The translations under genes and the position numbers were made by a program. This document shows positions 1-44,627 of a DNA stretch of 64,000 nt, one piece after another. Within the stretch, counting starts at the first letter, position 1. Each line of letters starts with the position of its first letter. The notes under the pieces were generated by a model, which worked only from the letters and a program-made list of their open reading frames with translations, did not search any database and was not told where the DNA came from. Origin of the DNA: Polytrichum commune (taxonomy: Eukaryota > Streptophyta > Polytrichopsida > Polytrichales > Polytrichaceae); NCBI GenBank assembly GCA_950295325.1, contig OX485803.1:18910001-18974000 (forward strand). The letters run 5' to 3'.

Positions 1-3000
1 TGCAATTCAGGGGTCCATTTCAGAATTCTATGCCGCCGCAGCCTCTGGAGCTAGTCTATAGACCTGTTGACCACCAGAGTCAGGGAGAGGAGGTTTTTGC
101 ACCTTTTATGCAGCGTTCAATCTCTGCACATACAATGGGTCCTCCACTTGGTTCTGTAGCTACCAATACTTATAATGCTGGAGTTGGTTCAGCACCCACC
201 TCTCCAAGGATGACCTACAGGGATTCATCTAACAGACTTCCAGCTGGCCAACCTCAGTCACAATCTCAACAGGTCCACCGAGCTTACGGACCAATGTATT
301 CAGATCCACAACATGGGAGAAGGCACCTTGGTCACAGTGATTCTTCCACTAGGCTAAGGCCATCAACCTCGCCTCCTCGGTATCGGGATCATCTCGGACA
401 TACAGATGACAGATTGCATAGATCTCATCAGCAGCCCTCTTTAATGACTTCTGATCCATTGCCACAAGAGCACTTTGTGTATGATATCCCTCCTATGGCA
501 TACAGCCAATATGCAGATGGAACAACAAGGTCACAATTATCTCAGTACCAAGGCCAAAATCCATTTCAGGATAATCTAAGTGTTTTCTCAGATCCTGGCT
601 ACCCAGATCACCAAGATGGTGGAGATGGAAGGCGGCATGGTTTGTACAGAGGGGAGAAGATTGTGCATCAGCCATTTCATCCCGCACACTTGAATGCATA
701 CCAAGATCTTAATCCTGCTGGAGCAGAGTCCCTGCCAGTTCACTCACGACCCCAAGAGAAACCAATGGATTGGTTAACACAGCAGGATGAACCAAGGCCA
801 CGGGTGGCTGGAGCTGGATGGCCTGGTGCTGCTGAATATGTAGATGAAGGTGGTACTGTTGAGTTTGCTCCTCTTCTACACGGTTTGGAGCCACATGGTG
901 GAAATTATCTCCATTTGCCTGAAGATTCTGATGCTCTGCTTGCACCAGTGGTTACAGATCCCTACCTTCACAGAAAGGCTGAGTGGGAGGAACCATCTGA
1001 GCTCAGTAATTTTGCATTGAGGGGTAGCATCTCTCAGTCGAGTGCTCTGCCAGCATATTCCTCAAATCTGGGTAGAGCAGTCACTGATGGCTCCCAAGCT
1101 GGCCCTTATCTTGGAAGAGTGAGTGAGACAAATCTCTATCCTGAGCCATCATCAAGGCCCAGAGAGAATCCACCGGATTTTGAGAGTACACCTGCACTAT
1201 CTGATATGGGTGGTCGTGCCCTGCCCTCTCTTCCAAACCCTAATACTCTAGCAGGTCATATCCTCACAGAAGATACCGCAGCTACAGTTGCTTTCAACCA
1301 TATGGTTCCTCATCTTTCATCCTATTCACAGAATGCGAGGAATATCGAGTCAGTCAATGCTGCTGAACTGAGGTGGGGAGGCCAAACAGGTTCTGATGAT
1401 GCAAGAGTGGAGGGGCTACCACATGCCCGTGACCAGGCCAACACCCAAGATCGGCTTCAGCAGTTGTCTGTTATAGGAGGCGTACAAGGTCAAGCTAGTA
1501 GGCCCTCAAGTGGGACAACCTTGGATGCTCTAGGGGATGGTGGCTTGCATGGATTGCATATTGGATCTGTCACCACTCAAAGCAATGAAACCTTGGTTGA
1601 AGATGATGTTGCTCTCACTGCTTTTAGTCTCCACAACATGGGTATCAGTGATAGATCTACACCTCCTAGCATTCACCAGTCCACCTCAGCAGGTCAGACA
1701 CAGCTTCCTCAGTCTATGACCAGCAAAATGACATCATTCACAGTTCCCACTCGCTCAATCCAGGTCTCAACAGAATCGTTTATACCAACTATTTCGACGC
1801 TTCCAACGTCTGTTAACACAAGCACCTCCTATTCAGAGCAAGTGCCCACCATTCCCTCCATTCTCTTTGAGCCAGTTGTTCCTGCTCCAAGAATGTCAGA
1901 AGGTGAATTTGGCAATTCATCAGGACCAAATGCTGAAGTTGAAAAGGAGAGCAACAAAGATTTTCTGTTACAGCTTTCTGCGACGGGTCATCTTGCGGAG
2001 GATATGGCTTCATCAGTCCTAAGAGGCTCTACTAAAGTACTTACACCTCTTCAAGCATCAAACAAGACACACGAGGAGGGCAAAGAAGCATGGCTGCCTG
2101 GTCCTCAAGATGCCACTGCTGTTCTCCCAGCTCCTCTCATATCTTCACCCACTTTTGCCATGCAGAATTGGGAAAAGAATCTTGCAGCTCTTGATGCAGA
2201 AGAGGAGGATGAACAAGATCGACGTGCTGCTGAAGGATCTATTTCTGAAAGGGATGTTCATGAAGTGCAGTCTCCGATTGTAGAAGTTCAAGAGGAGCCT
2301 GTGGCAGTGGTTCCAACAATAAAGGTAGTTATTAGTACTACTGTAATGGGGTGAAGGTGTGGAAGTAATTGCTATTATTTTGGAAATCTGTTCAAAGAGT
2401 CTTTTCTGATGGAAGGTCATGTGCAGGAAGCAACTGCTGATCTTCCAGGTTCTGTAGAAGACTTGAAGAAGATTGACAGCAATCCTGAAACAGCAGTGGA
2501 AGCTGAAGCCGAAGCAATTTCACGTGGTTTGCAGGTCATGCTCTGTTTGCAATACAGAATTGTTTTGAAGCATTTTGAGTATGTTCAGTTTTTGGCAGTG
2601 GGCATTGTAGACATTGACACCAATGAAAAAACTTTCTCACTTGCAGACCATTCTCAATGCTGATCTTGAAGAAATGAGAGAGCTCGGCTCTGGTACCTTT
2701 GGCACAGTTTATCATGGAAAATGGAGGGGTACAGATGTTGCTATCAAGAGAATTAAAGCTAGTTGCTTTGCAGGACGGCCTGCAGAGAGAGATCGTCTGG
2801 TAAGAAATATGAATGCATCAGTTTCTTGTCCTCTTCCTTTTGCATTTATGATGTCGTAAAGCTTATTGTAAGAGGCAGGTAAGTTTACTGATCCTGTAGG
2901 TAAGTATATGTGAGATTTTGAAAAGAGTTTGGTTGTCCGTCTTGCAGATTGCTGACTTTTGGAGGGAGGCCTGCACATTGGGTCAACTACATCATCCAAA

Positions 3001-4596
3001 TGTTGTGGCTTTCTATGGTGTGGTGCGGGATGGCCCTGGGGATACATTAGCAACTGTTACTGAGTACATGGTGAATGGGTCACTGAAACAGGTTCTCCAC
3101 AAGAAAGACAGGTAAATCAGCCGATTTGACTGTAGGCCACACACTGATAATTTTTCCTTCTTTCACTTGCATGTTGGGAGGTCCATGGTGGATCTGTCAA
3201 TTTGATTTTTCTTCTGAACAAACTGTGTTGTGACCAGAACTATTGATCGCCGAAAGCGACTGCTCATAGCAATGGATGCAGCTTTTGGAATGGAGTACCT
3301 TCACAGCAAGAATATTGTCCACTTTGATTTGAAATGTGACAACCTTCTTGTGAACATGAGAGACCCTCACCGACCTATTTGCAAGGTATACTACCACCTG
3401 TGAAGCGTGTGGTTATGGTGTGATTTCAGTCATCCTCTTTCCTCTTATCCACTACTGTAGGAATGTGGCTAGAAGTCTGAGGGAATTTTCTTGCTTTGGT
3501 ACATATTGCTATATGGGGTGCTGTTCAATCTGTTGATTATTGATGTTCTAGATTATTTGCTGTTCTATATGTCTTCAAGAAGACCGAAGGAAACTCAAAT
3601 GTGAAATTGCTGGTACTTGATGAGCATGTGTGAAGTATGAGTGATGTCAGTAGGAGTACTTGGAATGGTTTTTGTGTTTTCAGGTTGGTGATCTGGGATT
3701 GTCAAAAGTGAAGCATCAGACCATGGTTTCAGGCGGAGTTCGAGGAACATTACCATGGATGGCGCCAGAGTTATTAAATGGAAGCAGTAGCATGGTTACA
3801 GAGAAAGTATGTGCTTTTGTTCTGTTGTCAGAGGCTTAGCTGCATTTTTATACTCAAGTCTTGCAATCTTGGCCTTATACTTGGATGCTCTCTTCCTTCG
3901 CCCTATTGGAACTTCTCTTCTCTAACATTCAGAAATCAGCCAAGCTTGCAAACCTCTCAATAACTGTTTGTGTATTTTGAATGGAAGTTATTGAAAGAAA
4001 GTGTTACTTGTGTTTAGGGAAAATGAATACTTAAAGTCTGTTTTAAACTCGGGTTTTGTGACTACTTTCCACAGGTGGATGTCTTCTCCTTCGGGATAGT
4101 GATGTGGGAGCTTCTTACGGGGGAGGAGCCTTATGCAAATATGCACTATGGTGCCATTATAGGTAAGTCACTTCCTGCTTGCATAAGAATTTTTTCATAT
4201 TAATCTCAGAGACTAAGCAAGGTTCACATAGTTACAATCATGAGTGGTTTTGGCCTTTTAGAAGGGGTTGGCATATGGCTTTCAACTACTGGATGGCTAA
4301 ACATCCATACATACATTATAGTGTTGGTAAATTCTTACCAACCAACTCCATGTGCAGGAGGGATAGTTAACAACACTCTGCGACCGAAAATACCCACTTG
4401 GTGTGATCCTGTCTGGAAGTCTCTGATGGAGAGATGCTGGTCAGCAGAACCTTCATCTAGACCTAGTTTTACAGAGGTTGCAAGTGAACTGCGGGGTATG
4501 GCAGCAGCTCTTCAGCCGAAGCCTCATGGTGAGCCTCCTTTGCCCTTACTAAGACAATTAAGAGCTCCAGCTGAGCCTTCTGAATACTGGTTCTAA
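1..4596 (+). CDS. Raf-like MAPKKK protein kinase, group B type, 5'-truncated by window edge
   Basis: Serine/threonine kinase of the plant Raf-like MAPKKK family, whose group-B members act in ABA, osmotic-stress and related signalling. I place exons at 1-2324, 2427-2534, 2647-2799, 2948-3111, 3238-3385, 3684-3806, 4075-4162 and 4358-4596; all junctions are GT-AG and phase-consistent. The first exon is open to the window edge, so the true start, and probably the N-terminal PB1 domain usual in this family, lie upstream. Exon 1 encodes a long Ser/Pro/Gln-rich linker (about 765 codons visible). The kinase domain follows: glycine loop [11 protein letters not shown], lysine in VAIKRIK, catalytic loop HFDLKCDNL (Phe replaces the Arg of HRD), DLG in place of [12 protein letters not shown], and a C-lobe ending near GMAAAL. 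HFD and DLG both occur in plant Raf-like kinases, so they do not by themselves argue against activity. The protein ends at EYWF. Family assignment is strong; the exact subgroup is inferred. Confidence 0.95.
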
Positions 4597-14427: not shown

Positions 14428-16405
14428 TTAGGATGAGGGAACGAAGTTGGTGGCGTATGCCCATGCGTTGTTGGCAACGGGGTTCTCGAGATGGTCCAAC
14501 AAGTTCTCGAGGGGGCCCTTGCCGGTGACGATGGCCTGGACGAAGAATCCGAACATGGAGAACATGGCAAGTCGGCCATTCTTGAGCTCCTTAACCTTCA
14601 ATTCGGCCAAGGTATCGGGATCGTCAGCCAAGCCCAAGGGGTCGAAGTACTTGCCTCCGGGGTAAAGGTCACCTCCCTCACCGACACCGGGGAGACCGTT
14701 AGTGCGGAATCCCTCTACCAAACCCATGAGCACCACCTGCACGGCCCATACGGCCAGAATGCTCTGGGCGTGGATCAGGTTAGGGTTTCCGAGGTAATCC
14801 AGACCTCCATCGCTGAAAATCTGAGCTCCAGCCTTAAACCACACTGGCTCCTTCAATGTCACACGGGAGTATTTCTGAAGAACCTCAGGAAGAACGCATC
14901 CGAGAGCTCCGAGCATGGCCCACCTGGCGTGGATCAACTGCATAACATACAGACAGATGTCACGAATGATTACCAAGAAGGCTTGATATTTAATCATGCA
15001 TGGAAGAATACCACATTCTGAGGTAGATTCTTTATTCACTTTAAGAAACTGGATCTCGCACTTATCCACCGATCCGGCCCTATTCAGATTACTTCCAACT
15101 CCACCGACCTTATCCTAACAATGATGCTGACAAACGACAAATATGGTGCACACAGGTGCAGGAGCTGATACACACAATGTATGCCATGAAGGTTTCTCCT
15201 TTTCCTCAACATGGAAGAAAAGATTCTACGGTGGATAAGATTCTCTCCGTATTGGATATACCTCTCCCCCTGCGTTGCATCTCTGTTCGGGAAACTGACC
15301 TCTATCGACCTTATCCTGACAATCAACCTCAGTATGGTGTGGCATATGACTGAGCCAGATGAGGGTAGGCCTAGTTTTCGCCGTAGCATGATGGGAAACA
15401 CTAAGTGAAACTCGAAACCTCCGTTGACAACGATTGAAAGCTCTACGAACCTTATCATTAAAACGAAACTGGCAGATAACAAATACGGTATGCATAGATG
15501 CAAAATTTGATGCTTAAAAGAATGCAAAACATAGGGTTCTTAGTTCATCGTATTTACCTCCAAGGCCCTGTTGCGGGCGAAGGACTCGGGGTCGGCGGAG
15601 AGACCTGCAGTGTCCCATCCGTAGTCTCCGGGGAACTCACCCTGAAGGTATGAGGGGGTGTTGGCAGAGAAAGGTCCCAAGAACTTGGGTCTGTCTGGGC
15701 CATAGTAGTAGTCGCCGCTCTGCACTCATCATCATATCCCACAACCACGAATTAATAAGACCAACCTCAGACAATTTTGTTCAAGCCAACCTGCTCCGCA
15801 CACAAGCTATACAGTATTAATGGCCATAACTTAACGTCCAGACTTGCAGATAACTCATACCCAGAAAAACTCCGCCACAACATTGCAGTAAAACGTTTCT
15901 CGAGACAGTCTTATTTTACTCCCATTGCCACAATTCAACGAACATGACCACAACGCAAATGCCCACACCCATATCCACAGCCTCTGCGAAACTACACACC
16001 AAATCGAGGATGCTCTTCATCGTCCCCCCAGGATTGAAGACTACAGAATGGGTTCCTCGGCCACGTTTTCGAATCGCACATGTAAATCACATACATACAG
16101 AGTCCCCTCCAGAGCACTCACTGAAACCCAAATGCAAATGTGGCCCCTAAATGTACACCTCACGTACATTTGCGGATAATGTAAATGTCCAACAAATGCC
16201 GTCTTCGGGTGCAATGAGCACCAGAAATCGATTGAATGTGAATTGAACAAGAAATAGAGAAATTGCAAAGTGAGGTGTTGTAAGTTACCATGGAGAGCTT
16301 AGCCTGGCAGGCCCCGACACGCTTCTGGAGGCCATTCTCCTTGGCGACAGCTCCAAAGAAGGCTGAGCGGCTGACGGCCGACGAAGCTGCAGTCATGGCT
16401 GCCAT
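14428..16405 (-). CDS. Lhcb3: Chlorophyll a/b-binding protein of LHCII, type III
   Basis: Light-harvesting antenna protein of photosystem II in the thylakoid membrane; type III sits in the medium-bound LHCII trimer. Exons on the minus strand are 16405-16289 (39 codons, plastid transit region [18 protein letters not shown]...), 15719-15558 (54 codons) and 14937-14428 (169 codons plus stop). The protein is 262 aa, close to the family norm, and junctions are phase 0. Helix and pigment-site motifs are intact: [18 protein letters not shown], the first-helix [25 protein letters not shown], and the third-helix [16 protein letters not shown]. Type III rather than I/II is indicated by [37 protein letters not shown], and a short N-terminus without the phospho-threonine region. 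The trimerisation motif is YYGPDR instead of the usual WYGPDR. I chose the downstream ATG at 16405 because it gives the standard transit peptide; an in-frame ATG 48 bp upstream also exists. Confidence 0.96.
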
Positions 16406-30994: not shown

Positions 30995-33254
30995 CTAGAA
31001 AGTCGAGCCATTCCAGCCGAAGTCAGTTCTCTGCACGTACAACAGAGACACCAATGAGTTGAAAAATCAATCCAAAGCCTTGTCAACATAAGCACCTGAG
31101 CCCTTGTGCCTTCTTGGTGTGCATATTGAACTCCACCATTCATTCAGGGGGAGAAAAAAATTATTTAAAAAAAGGATTTACATGTTTAGTTGATGATCTC
31201 ACGCTTACGTTTGAGGATATGTATTGAATCATGTCATGCTTCAGATACAGCTACTTACCCATGGACATCAACCGCTAAGGGTCTTCTGTATAATTTTCAA
31301 GGCTTGTAGCCTTTAGCAGTAAGACCTATTGGTGAAGGATATGCATGCACATTGTTTCTTGAGAATGTGGCTGACCCTGCCCATGACATGCCACATTAAA
31401 GATGCAAGAATAAATTGATCACTTACACCAAAACTTAAGAATCTAGAAGACCTTGGGAGTGAAAGGGCACTAGCTAGCAAGAAAGTCACCTATCAGTATT
31501 GTTACTTTTAGGAGGTTGCCCATGAAGTTTTTTGATAGATGATTAGGGTGGTCATTCCTCTTCATTCCGCGTGATGCCCAATTACACTACAGACTATGGT
31601 GCCATGAGCACTGGTATAAGAAGGGAGCTCATGCAGGTGACTAGGACAAATGGAAACAGTCCTTAAGATTATAGTTAATATTGGTCGACAAGCTCCCGAA
31701 GTCTCTTTGAAACAATTTCTGTTGAAAGTTAGAATTAATACAGGAAACTGGATCCTACCTTGACATCAAAAAATTTGATGTAAAACCTTGCTGGAGGCAC
31801 AGATAATTTGGTCTTCAGGATCTCTGAAAGGGCAGCACTCAGTTGCTTGTTTGTGTCAGGCGCAATACCTCCAATTGAGATCAGCTCACCATATGCACAT
31901 GGCTCCTCACTCCCTCCAAATGACATTGGCACACCCCCTCGAAGAGATATCATTACATACTGTCAATCAAGCAACACAGAACCCATCAAACACCTCCCTC
32001 CAAAAGCCTTCCAGGATATGTAAGTATGGCTTGCAGAGAAAAGCATAGTATATCTATAATACAATAAGGTATATGTGGGTACTAACAAAGTGGCTGGATA
32101 TTGACAGCAGCATGTTGAGAGGACAATGTGAGAATGGCCTGGGACATTAATTCATATGCATGAGTACAACAGGTTGGGATGGCAAGGCCCAAACTAGTTA
32201 CAATACAACGGACAACCTACTATCCTCTCAACAGTGTGAACGCAGTGAACCAACTCGTCTTCAGTTCATATTGCCAAGCACTTGTAGAGATGGGCTAAAC
32301 TCCTTAATTCCCACCAAATCGAATAGTCTTTTTTCCAAAGTGATCCTCTCCACCTCGGATTTGGCTTCTGTAGGACACACTCTTGACCATATAGGACATG
32401 CTCTTGATGGTCAACGTAATTGGCAATACAAACTAAATGTCACACTTACAGCCACTGCTGCTCAGGATTCTGATAGCCAAAATGTCTAATGTTAATCATG
32501 AGAGCTAATTTAGAGTGGCTCCTTCATGTTCTAAGTGCTCACTCACGGTAAGCAGGTGTAAATGATCACTTTAAGCTCTGCATCTACTTCCCCACTTCCC
32601 ATAGGTTGTGAAGCATGCAATTAGTGTGAGATGATTGCCAATTCCAAATTGTGTCCGTAACCATTTTCCTCATCACTTTCATTGACAAAGTGAGGATTCG
32701 GTTTGACATTAAATGGTTATATGGAACCCCCCAAATATGTCCCCCATTGAGCCTACTAGAATGGTTAACGAGCACATAGTCCAATCCCTTTTACACACAT
32801 GTCATTTTGGTGTCCATTCTTAAATCCACGCCCAACCACATACCACTCAAATATAAGTTAGCTGCCCAATTAGAAAAACTGACCATGAGAGACCCGCTAC
32901 CTTAGGACCCTTCTGGACTCCCACACACTGTCTAACACCAAATCCGATATCATCATGATGAAGGAGACCATAAAGATACGGCATAACCCCGAGTCTAGTT
33001 TAGTTCATCGCCTACACATTTTCCAATACTGTTCACTCCGACACAATGGTGCGCACAAATAAAACTTCGCCTACATAAGTTCGAGCATAGAACCCCAATC
33101 ACCGTCTCTAATAGCTGAAATTGAGCATCAAGGAGCAACCTACCGATTCGGGTTTCCCGAGGACACGCGCAACGGCCTTGCTGGCGTCCTTGAGGATGTC
33201 GGAGGTGACAACCCCGTCCAGGGGCACGTTGGTCTGTACATTGAGGGTCGGCAT
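30995..33254 (-). CDS. MIF/D-dopachrome tautomerase-like protein (MDL)
   Basis: Small trimeric tautomerase-fold protein of the macrophage migration inhibitory factor family; plant members are called MDL proteins and act in the cytosol or peroxisome with poorly known substrates. Exons on the minus strand are 33254-33144 (37 codons), 31959-31759 (67 codons) and 31030-30995 (11 codons plus stop), total 115 aa, exactly the family length. The invariant Pro follows the initiator Met (MPTLNVQTNVP), so the catalytic Pro1 is kept. Other conserved stretches are GGVPMSFGGSEEPCAYGELISIGG, RFYIKFFDVK and the C-terminal FGWNGSTF. Intron 1 (1184 bp) contains a copy of the ~330-bp dispersed repeat at about 32530-32890. 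A (GA)n run lies upstream at 33427-33442. Confidence 0.95.
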
Positions 33255-35899
33255 TGCCACAAACGACGCCCAAAACAACCACGTCACAGCACCGTTTCGA
33301 GTGCCGCGCCGCTTGCTCGCAAGCTCGCAATCTCGCGTCGCAGAAATCTCACGTCCTGGCTCCAATGCTCCTCCCCTCCTGGCTGTGTGGATTGAAGTTG
33401 GTGGCGGTGGCGGGAGGGAAGGGGAGAGAGAGAGAGAGAGGGAAGGCTCGACAGAAAGCGCAGCGATCGACTCAGCGGACCAGAAACCTTGACCTGCTAG
33501 GGTTCTACGAATCAACCAATTTCTCGCAGCTCATGTTCACAAGAGCTACATTTACATCTGTACCTCGTCAAGCATGTACGAAGGGTGTAGATACCTTACT
33601 CACCGTGCCCAATTCCAGCGAGTTTTTCAGGGAGACACCCTACGGACCAGAGGAATCTTTGGCCACAAACGCAAGAATAATAATAAAACGGGCCATCCTA
33701 GCCACTTTTAATGTGGCTGGGGCAAACCAACCCGTACACTGGTTCCTTGGAGGCAAGGGTTTAGGCATTCAACAAAAAACGAGTGATGGGTTGATTTGTC
33801 TAAATCTCTTAATGTTGAATCTGTCGCTCGTGTCACCCTGACCCCTCGTCTCTTGTTACAACCTCTTGATTTTTTTAAAAATTATTAAAATTAAAATTAT
33901 TATTGTCTTTTTCTCTTAAGATATTGCATCACTAGGGTTGGCTAATGAAGGTAAAACCATGCTACTTAACATGGGCCACATTGTTTTTCTAGCAAAACCT
34001 ATTCTTATTCACGTTTATTATTGTGAGCCACATGATTTATCATGTACGAATATCAGTGTGGGTTGGTACTACTATAGTATCGGTACTTTTTTGTTGCACT
34101 AGGTAAATAGTACTATTAGCATGGGTCATAGTTTTTTGTGTGGGTGTAGTGATGCCAAATCTCTCTACTTTAGAATTAGTGTGGGCCACATTAATCTTTT
34201 CTTCTTCTAGGGAATTGATGTGGGTGGTTGTTTTATTTTATGTTGAAAGGTGTTGGTAGGAAGTTGCAAGGAGGATTGATGGGGAGACCTGGGGGTCTTG
34301 GAGCCACATTATTTCCACCCCAACTAGACAACTAGAGTGCCCCATGAAAAACATTTCCACGCTATTTTTCCATCCACACTGATAGGACTCTTGTTGTAGC
34401 TTTTGCTCTGACAAGAGGCTTCAATTTACATTGATTTTGAAGAGTTTGATTAAAAATTTGGGCCACAATAAATATGTGGAATATTATTTCTAATGCCACG
34501 CTAAATTAATTATTTAGTGTAGCTTGCATAACGATGGGTCAGCATTACACTATGTGAACAATGTTGTGTCTATGCACATGTATTCCATGCAAATTGAAGC
34601 AAAGGAGAGACTTGGTGTTCAATTTTTGAGATGAGAATTATACTTCCATTACATATAGGTACGGTCATTCCATCTTCAACCTCAAGACTTATAAAAACCC
34701 GGCAAAACTTGCCATTCACAACTTAGCAAAAATATACTTATGTGTACATGTTTATGGTGCTATTGTGAGCGCCTCCAATTCCACTTACCATTTTGGCCAT
34801 TGGATTGGCTTGGAAGTTGTCTCATTTAGTTGGCAATTACACATTGCGAAGATTGTCGTTGCCAAGTTTTGAAATCAAAGTGAGTCACATGGAAATTGTA
34901 AGAGGTCAAATTGAAGCTTTCCTTTGTAGTGAAGAGGCCCTTCCAAAATTATGTCAACTATTGAACCTAGAATGGTCTTAACTCTACATCATGGCATATA
35001 CCGATCAAATAATAGGTGTTCAATTGTGAAGAGTGTCCAGATAAGGTGGCCATTCCTTGGTATCACGATAGGCATGGTTTACAGTGATCCAATCACTTCC
35101 GTTAGACTAGATAATGGATCAGCCCATGAACAAAATCTAGTAGTCATGGATGATATTGTGCCTCCATCGATGGAAAATTGTGACAAGTTCTGATAACTCT
35201 AATCAGTAAGGGATAAGTAACAACACTTGCCACATCCTCATCCTTGATTGCCACTATGCTTCCAATAGTGTACAAAGTTTACACAGTTCTACATTTATCA
35301 TTGAAATTTGTGAAAGCAACACATAAAAAATGAAAGAAAGGGATGGCAGAATAGTTGAATTGAAATACTAAGTTATTAGATGAAAACAACATGGATGCAA
35401 ACTACTACCAATTTGCCACCTGGTGTGATGATAGAACATCTATACATATGCGATAGTGGGTCAATCTATGTCAGATTGAGCTGGCAACTGATTGACTTCT
35501 TATGCACAAGTGAAACATTTCCCTATTGATGTGTTTCAATTGACTGAAGCGACAATTGAAATTACTGAATCATCTATCAGTGTGGATGAGAGCATTTATA
35601 GGAAAACAATGCTGGCATGGAGATGCTAAATTGTTCAAGAAATCACACCGATACTTCACAAACCTGCTCTGTGATCACACAACATATACTCCCAAAAGGC
35701 AGTTTGAATCCGTTATTTACTCCTCTTCAATAGTACAGTGCAGTAGTATAATATGATGGGGGAGGGACTCTTTTCAAAGTCTCCTTTCCCAGCATCATCA
35801 AAATTGAAAAGACACCTTTGTGGATTGAGAGCCATATAGTACATTTTCCTCCAATTCTACCTAAACAAAAGCAAAAAACTAAGCTCTGTTGTCAATTGA
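33255..35899. other. MDL promoter and intergenic region, no further gene
   Basis: 33255-33520 is GC-rich and probably the MDL promoter/5' UTR, with a (GA)n tract. From 33900 to 34560 there are repeated words like GTGGGCCACATTAAT shared with the element at 19124-19453, in opposite orientation. A fragment of the ~330-bp dispersed repeat is at 34945-34985. The part nearest 35900 is the likely 3' UTR of the BTB gene. Confidence 0.4.
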
Positions 35900-38849
35900 T
35901 CAACAACTTGCTCGAGCAAATACCTCACCCGCTCCTAGAAAAGAAACCTGTACACACAAGGTGCAATCCTTTTGTATGCCGTGGTCGGGGAGCATGCTAT
36001 CATCTGGGAGCTTCTTACCTCCGTAGCACAACCACCAGGTCCTCACACATTGCACAAAACCTTTTCTTTTAAGAAGCAATTTAATGGAGTGGATGGTGGT
36101 GTCTGGTGTCACCATGATCGAATACGTCCGCCCTTCGAGAGACCGGATGAAGATGCTGAATTGCACTCCATGATCATAATACTCCTGCATTGAGCCTCCA
36201 ATGATCTTTCTTCTCTTAGATTCACTTTCTTCATGCTGCACAAGGACAATGCAGAGCTCAACAACTTTACATGCCAGAATTTGCATGAGGTGCAATCGGA
36301 AACCCTAGAGGAAGATGTCCTGTGGGTATATATAATGAGGATTTTACATTGTTTTTGATGCCAGTAGGGTATGGGTACTTGAAGGTGTAATTTTTTCTGG
36401 TTTTTTGGATACCATACGGGTCTATATACCATGCTGGAACCTTCTTACCTTGGTAGAATTGTCCTAGTACCAATGTGGTCTTAGGATGGTTATCAACCAA
36501 TGTTGGATTGGTATATAGGTGAATGCAGGGTATCAATAATAAACATCAATAATGGTATCAAAGACCCTACGTGTGGATATCAAAATTGCAATATCAGCAA
36601 ATATTGATTCTCGGTGCGTATGTGAAGGTGAGGGAATCTTTGTATACCAAGTTATTATTTGGGTTCATACAATTCTAAACCATATTGATACTAGGGCGAT
36701 TTTACTTAGGTATGAAAGTTCTTGCATAATATTTAGACCTGAATGGTATTAATAAAAAATAAATCCTTCAAATACCAGTAGCCTACTGGTATTGAAGAAA
36801 TGTGAAAACGTCATTACAGACACCCGAATGGTATCCAAAAAAGATGATACCAGCCCAACAGTAATATTAACCCAAATAATGACTCGGGTGTACAAAGGTT
36901 CTCTCATCTTATGATAGCCACAAAGTACCAGAATCTAACTGGTTTTACAATTCTGATACCACTCAGGTAGGCCTTTTAGTACAATTATTGACATTGTGTA
37001 TCAATACCATGCATTCACCTATATACCAGTCCAACAACATTCATTTGAATGAACTGCAAACTAACATGGACAAACTAAGAAAATGTCAAGAATGTGACTT
37101 ACATGAGCAAGTTTTCTCTTGAGGTTTTTGAACATGTCTTGGTACTTTTGCAGCATGGCACCAAGAAACTCTGGACAATGTGGAATCAAGGACTCGACAG
37201 CAGTCTCGACGGTTGTCTCCGACACTCTTTGCACATCAACCAACGCCCAAAGGTCTAGTGCCTCCTCTTGAGGAATAGATCCTGCGAACCTCGCCACAGC
37301 ATCATACAGCACATCGTGTCTCTCTCTCGCATTTGAAGGAACACATTGCGCCACTTGCTTGAACGTCTCTTTGAATTCTCGTGTCCAAAGATTTTTTTGC
37401 GCTCCTAACAACAGATACGCATCGATCAGTTGTGCCAATCGTTGCAACTCCTCTCGGGAAGCAAGGGCTCTTTCCAGTGCTGGTGAGAAAAGCTCCATGA
37501 TGATGTCCGGGCTTAAGTTCAGCATATCCTCCGCGTCGAGGTAAACGAGTTTCGTCGACATGCACTCCTTGATGTTCGATTTGCTCATTCTTGAGTGTTT
37601 GAGGAAAAAAGGAGTGAGAAGAAACACCAGTTTCTTCGGGTGCACTTGGTCGACCTGAACCTCACCTTGATGGAGCGATCGTTCAAGGCCTGCGGCGAGG
37701 AACAACATAATTGAGCATGCATTTGCGCTTGCCACACTGTCAGAAGTGACCATTGCACACCAATCCGCGGGCGTCTCACCACACCACACCGAATCTGCAA
37801 AGGTTACCGCGCGGTTCTCCAATTGTTGTAAGATATTGGCCACTACGTCAGGTCTCAGCTTTGTCAGCCCTAACAAGAGGTTTACTATTTCTTCGTTGTT
37901 GCTGTGGCCTGTTTGCTGTAAGCATTGCGCTTGGCTGGAGAGGCTGTTGATGAGCATAGGCTCAACCCAAGTGCGCACATTCTCATCACAATTTGCAACA
38001 CTTGACATGCTTGATAAGATTTTCAGAGCACTGTCTATGCTGCTTGTCCCTTCCCTATCTATGAATGCCTTGCAGTGCATGCACAGGTTGTTCTTTGCAA
38101 CATCCTGGACAATCCACAAACAGCTGATTAGATGGTTGGGAGCCACTTCTTAGGTCATAAAATCAAGATGAGGCACCCTTGGAAGTCGCAGCAGCTCCTA
38201 GAATCTGTTACAACAAAGACAGCATCTGAGCAAGACAACACTTGTAAATATCCATAATTGTGAAAACTTTTTGATGTGGAGATTTATGTTATCGCCTCTG
38301 TGCATCCAAGGAATTCTGCTAAAGAGAGTATAACAGCTGATTAGTGAAGGTTCTGTAAGATGGTTGGACGCCAGCTTTTAGACATCTAAATACATTAAAT
38401 CAAGAGGAGGAGACTTTGCGAGTTGCTGCAGCTCCTAAAATTTGTTGCAAACAGCACCTGAGCAAGACAACACTGTGAAAACCTTTTGATATAATAGAGA
38501 TATATATCACCTCTGTGCATCCGAGGAATTCGGCTGCAGCGAGGATAATGAAGACGTTCGTTGACGTGAGTGTCACCGGACGCTGATAGCAGAAGTCCAT
38601 AATAAACTCAAATGCCTTTTCCTTCCCCGGAAGCGCGGAAAGATCCATCTGCAGAGGCCATTCCTTCTTGCAACTTGCGAAAAAGTTCACAAAGTACAAA
38701 GATTTTGTATAAAACATCATGTAGTGACACTCATAGACATGTGTGTCTATGATCACCCTCATACCACACATTGCTCGATACCGTGTCCAGATGTACTCTG
38801 CCTGGAATGCGTCAGCTACGATGACCTGCTTTCTTTCTGTGTCTTCCAT
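35900..38849 (-). CDS. BTB-NPH3-family protein with C-terminal ubiquitin-like domain (predicted fusion)
   Basis: Predicted exons on the minus strand are 38849-38511, 38104-37103 and 36235-35900, about 558 aa, all junctions phase 0 with good GT-AG sites. Exon 1 carries a BTB/POZ domain: VIIDTHVYECHYMMFYTKS, KEKAFEFIMDFCYQRPVTLTSTN, LAAAEFLGCTE. Exon 2 resembles the NPH3 helical region, with LIDAYLLLGAQ and ERHDVLYDAVARFAGSIPQEE. BTB-NPH3 proteins serve as CUL3 ubiquitin-ligase adaptors. Exon 3 begins with a basic patch (ESKRRK) and encodes a ubiquitin-like fold: FSIFIRSLEGRTYSIMV, DTTIHSIKLLL, WWLCYGGKKLPDD, HGIQKDCTL; it lacks a C-terminal di-glycine, so it would not be a cleavable modifier. 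The start is uncertain: ATG at 38849 is the first in frame, but an upstream frame (MSDDLANIVEHVHGF, 38926-38880) would join it with a one-base shift. Domain calls are good; the fusion itself is inferred from splice phase only. Confidence 0.72.
36501..37036. mobile_element. Inverted-repeat element inside BTB gene intron 2, 536 bp
   Basis: The left end TGTTGGATTGGTATATAGGT pairs with the reverse complement of the right end (TGTTGGACTGGTATATAGGT) with one mismatch, and pairing continues through GAATGCA. The interior is full of short GGTATCA/TGATACC words. A related partial copy is at about 44210-44450, just upstream of the gluconokinase gene. No clear target duplication. It is not expected to affect the protein if spliced out. 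Confidence 0.65.
38115..38545. repeat. Tandem duplication (~215 bp) across the BTB exon 1/intron 1 border
   Basis: Two head-to-tail copies (about 38115-38330 and 38331-38545) share ACAGCTGATTAG, ATCAAGA, GAGCAAGACAACAC and CTCTGTGCATCC. The copy nearer exon 2 still encodes AEFLGCTE on the minus strand, but the splice donor GTGATA has become GCGATA. The duplicate is therefore a fossil exon end inside the intron. Confidence 0.7.
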
Positions 38850-39008: not shown

Positions 39009-39930
39009 CCCATTTGCCACTCCAATGCCACCACACCAAACTTCAAACAAGGAAGCTGATGTATGAGAATTTCAAAAATCTTACATAACCACACAACTTA
39101 CATGAAATAATACAGACTTATTTACCTTGGACACATACTGGGTACATCTGCTGTTGCAGCACTTCTCCTTGCCCTGCTTGTGGTCATCATACTTCATGCT
39201 GCCCAATACCCATGAGACGTTATCCCCACTTCTAAGACTGTAGCAGCCTTACAATGTTCTGGATGAATAATGCATAAATCATGGGAGTGTTCATAGATAC
39301 TTGTAAGACTGGACATAGCAACTATGACATTCCAGAATCATGTACACAAAACATCAAAACCACTGGAGAAGCACACAGAGGTTGATTTTGAGAAGGATCC
39401 CCTAGAAGTTTCAAATTCGTCGATGAGCATTCGGACACCTCATCACTGGCACTCTGGACACAGTGGACATCTCGTTTTACCTCACATTGGCATCGAACTT
39501 GACAACACGCAAAGTCACTTATATGACTCCTTAAAGATATAGTTGTCTTGATTATACGCATAGACAATGATGATCCACTGCACAACAGAGCAAATGCACA
39601 TTGATCACAAAACTCGACATTTGATGAGCCAATATAATTACAGCGCCCGGACCAAAATCAGACGCTAACGCTAGCTACCAGATACCTACTGATTTCCACA
39701 TCTGTCTCTTAAGAAGGCTCAGAAATTGAGTCATCAAAGCATCAGCAGTTTCCGCAATTCTGAGCCAAATCCAAACCAGAACCAACGAACCGCATTCACG
39801 CTACCGGTAACCCACAGCTTGGTCCTCACTATACAATCCCAAACTCAAAACTCAACCTCCTCCGCCATCCAGAACCCTAACTTTAGCAGTACAGCACCTC
39901 TCGACCAACCCCCGCGGTCGGTGTGAGGGA

Positions 39931-43647: not shown

Positions 43648-44627
43648 ATTCAATGTGGACAGCCACGCAGGGGATGCTTCTCGGTACGGTTTTCAACTTT
43701 CCTAGCTGCTAAGTTGTGGTTTGTGAGGGTTGTGTAATTTGCAGTTGGGTTTCGGTGATCTGCTGTCCTCATTGTTTCTGGGGTCTTGGGAAACAGCGTG
43801 AATGCATGTGTCAGTGTGATGTGGAGTGTTACATTTGTAGCTTGGGTAGTAGTAATGGTGTATCCTATCGAGTCGGACAGGTGATGCTATGTGGGTGGAG
43901 TTTTAGGTTTTCAATTAGTTTCTGGGGTTTGTTAAGGTCGACGTGTCTGAATCCAACATAGGAAAAATCTGGACACCACCAAAAATACATTTGTTTAAAA
44001 CAGATTGGGCTCCGTGCTCGAAATATATCATAAGCATTGAATCGTGAACGTGAACGTGATTGGGGGCACATACATGACTGCTTAATGAGCATGAGAATTT
44101 TCACTTTGATAGTTAATAAGATGTTCATATGAGCTCCGAAAATTATGAGGAATGTGGATACTGGCACGATTTGGATTTGCTAATCATCTCTTGCGCTAAT
44201 TGCATGTTTTTAATACCACTTGGGTATCATCCAAGAACCTTCTTACCTAGGTAAAATTGCCTTAGTATCAATTTGGTAATATGATGGTATTGACCCAATT
44301 AATAACCTACGTATACAAAGATTCTCTAATCTAGTGATAGCCACCAAGTATCGACATCTGACTGTTATTACAATTTTGATGCCAGTGGGGAGGGTTCTTT
44401 GATACCATGCATGCACCTGTATTCCAGCACAACTTTGGTAATCACAACTTCTTCTACCGGTGGGCTTGTCAATCTTACCTCAGGAAGTTGAGTGCAATTG
44501 CGGCGGCTGCAGCGACCATAATGATGGGATTCACTGAGTCTGATAACTTTTAAAGGTGGATTGGGCTGATGCTGTAACTTGAGGAGAACAATTGCACTAA
44601 ATTGTTCTGGAGTTCGGGCTTTCCAAG

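Follow-up and report, generated by a model that had tools for sequence, protein, structure and literature searches.

Organization of the locus

The window, by which we mean the whole 64,000-nucleotide stretch of the Polytrichum commune genome that was analyzed, contains a predicted three-exon gene together with several neighboring genes and repeats (Table 1). A frame check on the minus strand showed that the three exons form one collinear frame of 558 aa in which every joint is in phase 0. The start codon in exon 1 has a good context (GTT-ATG-G), and the stop codon of the model lies at 35902-35900 on the minus strand. The first-pass annotation had proposed a BTB exon, an NPH3-like exon and a ubiquitin-like exon in this order on one strand, joined at phase 0; its coordinates and protein length proved exact, and the order of the Pfam matches agrees with it. 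It had also suggested a domain search of the 558-aa model, in which BTB and ubiquitin scored above their Pfam cut-offs (20.5 and 25.4 bits, respectively) and NPH3 scored at its cut-off (27 bits). TPR_IPO11, Rad60-SLD, AbiEi_3, Ubiquitin_4, BTB_SANBR and UvrD_C all fell under their own Pfam cut-offs in the 558-aa model and were left unused.

Table 1. Positions of the predicted gene, its introns and other features in the window.
Feature	Position	Strand	Description
Exon 1	38511..38849	-	113 aa, with the start codon and the BTB domain
Intron 1	38105..38510	-	406 bases
Exon 2	37103..38104	-	NPH3-like region, 334 aa
Intron 2	36236..37102	-	867 bases; donor GTAAGT at 37102, acceptor end at 36236
Exon 3	35900..36235	-	KRRK-bearing linker, ubiquitin-like domain and stop; 111 aa
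Dispersed inverted-repeat (MITE-like) element	36501..37036		about 540 bases, most of intron 2
MIF-like gene, probable first exon	33111-33530	-	Pfam MIF 20.7 bits, below cut-off 22
Chlorophyll a-b binding protein exon	14431-15114	-	Pfam 128.7 bits; many solved light-harvesting chains match
783-aa open frame	3-2351	+	no Pfam match; at window edge
Protein kinase C-terminal piece	4204-4593	+	PK_Tyr_Ser-Thr 25.6 bits, cut-off 23.1

The assignment of exon 3 to the gene downstream was considered. Past exon 3, the first gene found on the minus strand is a MIF-like one that starts about 2.6 kb away. Since its MIF profile match begins at profile position 1, near 33250, exon 3 is unlikely to belong to that gene.

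Exons 1 and 2 as an NPH3/RPT2-like gene

The Pfam BTB profile matched residues 27-115 of the whole model with 25.4 bits and exon 1 alone with 24.6 bits. The score of the Pfam NPH3 profile was marginal (25.8 bits at residues 328-408 of the whole model, 27.0 bits for exon 2 alone and 27.1 bits in the genome scan), and the match covered just profile positions 174-254 of 258. A second NPH3 profile was derived from the same genome and comprised 17 sequences, one from each of 17 NPH3 loci, with matches anchored on one locus. Against this own-genome profile, spliced exons 1 and 2 scored 83.7 bits, compared with 36.1 bits for exon 1 and 28.9 bits for exon 2 taken separately, and the best of 2000 shuffled sequences reached 6.8 bits. 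On the part matched by Pfam NPH3, the own-genome profile gave 22.8-24.2 bits. Because the joined exons score so much higher than either exon apart, the gene belongs, judged by its sequence, to the NPH3/RPT2-like family as a divergent member, and the joint between exons 1 and 2 is supported. The first block aligned to the profile, residues 65-177, crosses this joint (113/114) without a gap, and this continuous homology also supports intron 1. Alignment with hhalign gave a probability of 96.4%, for residues 40-147 only. Residues 178-325 did not align to the own-genome profile, so that the NPH3 domain is strongly diverged in its middle.

Divergence of this kind, with the best-matching paralogues at 28-35% identity, would also fit a decaying gene, that is, an old NPH3-family copy that captured exon 3 by chance and yields no functional protein. 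Weak donors and the near-neutral codon usage of exons 1 and 3 point the same way, as does the partial duplication of exon 1 within intron 1. In the intron, the exon 1 end and the intron start recur as a diverged tandem copy (direct repeats D1, D2, D5 and D8; 38105-38548) with a spacing of about 215-237 bases and a self-match of 71%; the second donor copy reads GAGGCGATA in place of GAGGTGATA. Decay is nevertheless improbable in our view, given the 558 stop-free codons over three exons, including an open run of 362 codons, and the conserved positions retained in the BTB, NPH3 and ubiquitin-like parts.

Arabidopsis NPH3, RPT2, NCH1 and NPY1 belong to the NRL family of CUL3 substrate adaptors. 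Like them, the predicted protein has an NPH3-like region behind its BTB domain, and the own-genome profile relates it to 17 NRL loci; it also has a formal R-x-S at its extreme end. Typical members end in a coiled coil, whereas the C-terminal module here is a ubiquitin-like domain. NRL proteins are described in PMC7242014 as generally trimodular, with a BTB domain, an NPH3 domain and a coiled coil. In our model, the NPH3 match ends at residue 416, leaving about 55 residues before the ubiquitin-like domain; single-sequence AlphaFold modelling, of poor quality (mean pLDDT 56.7), predicted a low-confidence helix at exon 2 residues 311-333. The C-terminus of the protein, RASC, is unlike the RRHSIS ending present in 2 of the 17 NPH3 loci, and its R-x-S could be due to chance. 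C-terminal RxS phosphorylation is described in PMC8531357 as conserved among several NRL members, and the RASC end may carry a family-like phosphorylation site.

Ubiquitin-like domain of exon 3

The Pfam ubiquitin profile matched exon 3 alone with 39.4 bits (E 5.1e-10) and residues 475-543 of the whole model with 37.1 bits. Exon 3 aligned with ubiquitin at a score of 89; the best shuffled sequence scored 46, and 0 of 2000 shuffles reached 89. Compared with the ubiquitin encoded in the same genome, L8, K27, K33, G47, K48 and K63 were kept, and the changes were K6R, K11R, K29L, I36V, R42W, I44C and F45Y. Three further changes, H68C, V70Q and G76A, were taken from the alignment to tandem ubiquitin, because the alignment to a single unit reaches no further than position 67. 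In the hydrophobic patch L8/I44/H68/V70, three of the four residues are thus changed and L8 is kept. The aligned end is LGAGEVFARASC, with A opposite G76, and the first-pass statement that the domain lacks a terminal GG was correct. An end of this kind allows neither processing nor conjugation.

The same annotation had suggested that the domain lets the adaptor dock to ubiquitin receptors or to the proteasome. The ubiquitin-like domains of shuttle proteins dock in this manner, and L8, G47 and K48 are retained in exon 3. Contacts with ubiquitin receptors and the proteasome normally use the L8/I44/H68/V70 patch, however, and I44C, H68C and V70Q alter most of it. Docking is accordingly weakened as an explanation and is not favoured, because three of the four patch residues are changed; we give it little credence. 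We consider the domain unlikely to act as a standard proteasome or UBA/UIM docking unit.

After itself, exon 3 was matched best in the genome by polyubiquitin, with 29-30% identity. In addition to this identity, the 39.4-bit Pfam score relates the domain to the polyubiquitin/ubiquitin family, from which it differs in the missing GG end, the altered hydrophobic patch and the position behind an adaptor. Past the position of the former GG, the sequence weakly resembles the beginning of another ubiquitin unit (raw score 99 vs 89). As a control, the tail and its last nine residues were each shuffled 5000 times; 75 shuffles of the former and 13 of the latter scored as high. These values give a slight hint that the domain may derive from a fragment of a polyubiquitin gene. 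RAD23, DSK2 and parkin also contain a non-cleavable ubiquitin-like domain within a protein of the ubiquitin pathway. In these proteins, the domain is N-terminal and the hydrophobic patch is usually kept, and we know of none among them that is a BTB-NPH3 protein.

Modelling of the exon 3 domain from its single sequence with AlphaFold gave a poor mean pLDDT of 61.5, and a Foldseek search with this poor single-exon model returned no match at E 0.001. Inside exon 3, a strong donor-like site, GAG/GTAAGA (10.7), and an acceptor-like site, TGTACAG (11.5), were observed from 36018 to 35948 on the minus strand; splicing between them would delete 71 bases of the ubiquitin-like domain and cause a frameshift.

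Predicted joint between exons 2 and 3

Splice sites were scored with matrices trained on 12 hand-picked paralogue introns, in which donors scored 6.1-11.5 and acceptors 6.4-14.6. The intron 2 donor, CAT/GTAAGT, scored 6.66 and the acceptor, TTGTGCAG/CAT, scored 5.97. The donor is among the best 2.7% of the 7107 GT sites in the window and is outscored by 11 of the 12 training donors; the acceptor is among the best 3.0% of 7694 AG sites and lies under all 12 training acceptors. The earlier description of these splice sites as good therefore holds against the background of the window, but not against the training introns. The donor has no G at -1, and its word recurs at 39101 and so is not rare. 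Elsewhere within intron 2, every acceptor-like site scored below 6.

In intron 1, the donor GAG/GTGATA scored 5.72, less than the intron 2 donor, and the acceptor GTCCAG/GAT scored 10.52. Intron 1 is backed by homology despite its weaker donor, and moderate scores are therefore compatible with real introns in this gene. The length of intron 2 lies inside the 119-1106 base span of the 12 kept paralogue introns. Most of the intron is taken up by the MITE-like element, whose arms of 73 bases are 78% complementary. Further partial copies, 75.5-78% identical, were found at 44225-44408 in the window and at three other NPH3 loci (L041, L046/L061 and L056).

The joint is the weak point of the model: genome searches gave no homologue that spans it. 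The region could instead hold two genes on the same strand. The first would be an NPH3-like gene that ends just past exon 2, either at the stop codon 37063-37061 or in another, undetected 3' exon, and the second a separate one-exon ubiquitin-like gene downstream, starting at 36190 or 36286. Such stand-alone diverged ubiquitin-like genes are common among eukaryotes. The exon 3 frame stays open as far upstream as 36304, with an ATG at each of these two positions, and the one at 36190 permits a stand-alone ubiquitin-like frame, yet both have poor contexts (CTC-ATG-C and TCA-ATG-C) compared with that of exon 1. The promoter of a second gene would be confined to the roughly 330 unique bases (66 + 265) that flank the repeat element, or would lie inside the element itself. 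The intron 2 splice sites are moderate, which suits two genes, but where the NPH3 frame ends there is an in-phase GTAAGT donor. Reading through this donor adds just 13 codons before the stop, and this tail, VSHILDIFLVCPC, short as it is, has the lowest codon usage score of ten segments. Taken together, these features lead us to judge it likely, on the sequence evidence, that exons 2 and 3 are spliced together in one transcript; two separate genes are rather unlikely.

Codon usage was +0.05, +0.12 and -0.04 bit per codon for exons 1, 2 and 3, respectively; exon 3 is near neutral and is not marked as coding by this measure. As a test of the joint, codon usage was rejected as uninformative, the 111-codon null (263 samples, mean +10.8) being off-centre. 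An intron position common with the paralogues was likewise unsupported, the donor here lying about 19 codons beyond the ends of the paralogue matches in a hand alignment. In 8 of the 17 loci, a paralogue match stops close to where the NPH3 domain ends (query 497-499). The motif past this point is uninterrupted in 3 of 18 loci searched, a count that is uninformative on the junction.

Rarity of the predicted domain combination within the genome

The three exons were searched against the 407.8-Mb genome; they gave strong matches to themselves only, and these searches found no second copy of the gene. Genome scans yielded at least 47 NPH3 matches, grouped into 19 loci, at least 39 BTB matches and at least 86 ubiquitin-family matches, all of them lower bounds because the scans score best candidates only. 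The BTB domain of this gene itself fell under the threshold of the BTB scan. By eye, and among the matches listed, a ubiquitin-family match lay within 50 kb of only one of the 19 NPH3 loci, namely this gene. The nearest other NPH3/ubiquitin-family pair among the matches listed was about 91 kb apart, on C7, and by eye none of the listed BTB matches lay within 100 kb of a ubiquitin-family match. The rarity of the combination refers to the Polytrichum commune genome only.

Two contig collections, in which plant genomes were not purposely included, were searched for relatives: 21 pattern matches to exon 2 in the viral collection and 72 pattern matches to exon 3 in the genome collection were obtained, and none was confirmed. 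A search of the freely accessible literature found no report of the BTB, NPH3 and ubiquitin-like combination. One paper retrieved by a broader search mentions NPH3 solely as a BTB partner domain and does not describe the combination.

Another very divergent NPH3-like gene was observed at locus L069 (G000:C1:42883000-42892900), at about 42887212-42890960 on the minus strand. This locus (C1:42.88 Mb) was rejected as a second BTB-NPH3-UBL gene: none of the listed ubiquitin-family matches is near, and the frame following NPH3 looks coiled-coil-like by eye.

Proposed function

The explanation that we favour, with a probability of roughly 0.6, is a divergent NPH3/RPT2-like adaptor of the CUL3 type that ends in a ubiquitin-like module fit for interaction but not for conjugation. 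The gene would encode a BTB substrate adaptor for CUL3 ubiquitin ligases, with the ubiquitin-like domain, encoded by a separate phase-0 exon, in the position that the coiled-coil tail has in typical members; the original coiled coil would be gone. In NPH3, the BTB domain is reported to bind CUL3 and the coiled coil to bind phot1 (PMC7242014), and by analogy the BTB domain of the present protein would bind CUL3. The ubiquitin-like tail would act as a non-covalent interaction module that recruits a partner or substrate, or that tunes the ligase in cis, and the kept K48- and K63-type lysines could serve as internal acceptors. A bolder and doubtful extension is that the gene represents a new class of CUL3 adaptors, BTB-NPH3-UBL, in which a swap of the tail exon removed the coiled coil and the new tail acts as a ubiquitin mimic in cis (an acceptor, a chain nucleation site or an autoinhibitor).

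According to PMC7242014 and PMC8531357, the C-terminal part of NPH3 includes the coiled coil that binds phot1 as well as a phosphorylation site regulated by light. A ubiquitin-like domain as the tail of an NPH3-family adaptor appears to be an unusual combination. If the favoured explanation is true, such a domain in the NPH3-tail position would be a natural domain-swap experiment on the role of the tail, and the gene would show parts of the ubiquitin pathway recombining inside a single gene.

A short upstream frame was also observed at 39197-39084 on the minus strand. It begins with MKYDDHKQGKEKCCNSRCTQYVSK, had no Pfam match and is crossed by a strong donor-like site, AAG/GTAAAT, at 39125; it may represent either an upstream open reading frame or a 5' exon.
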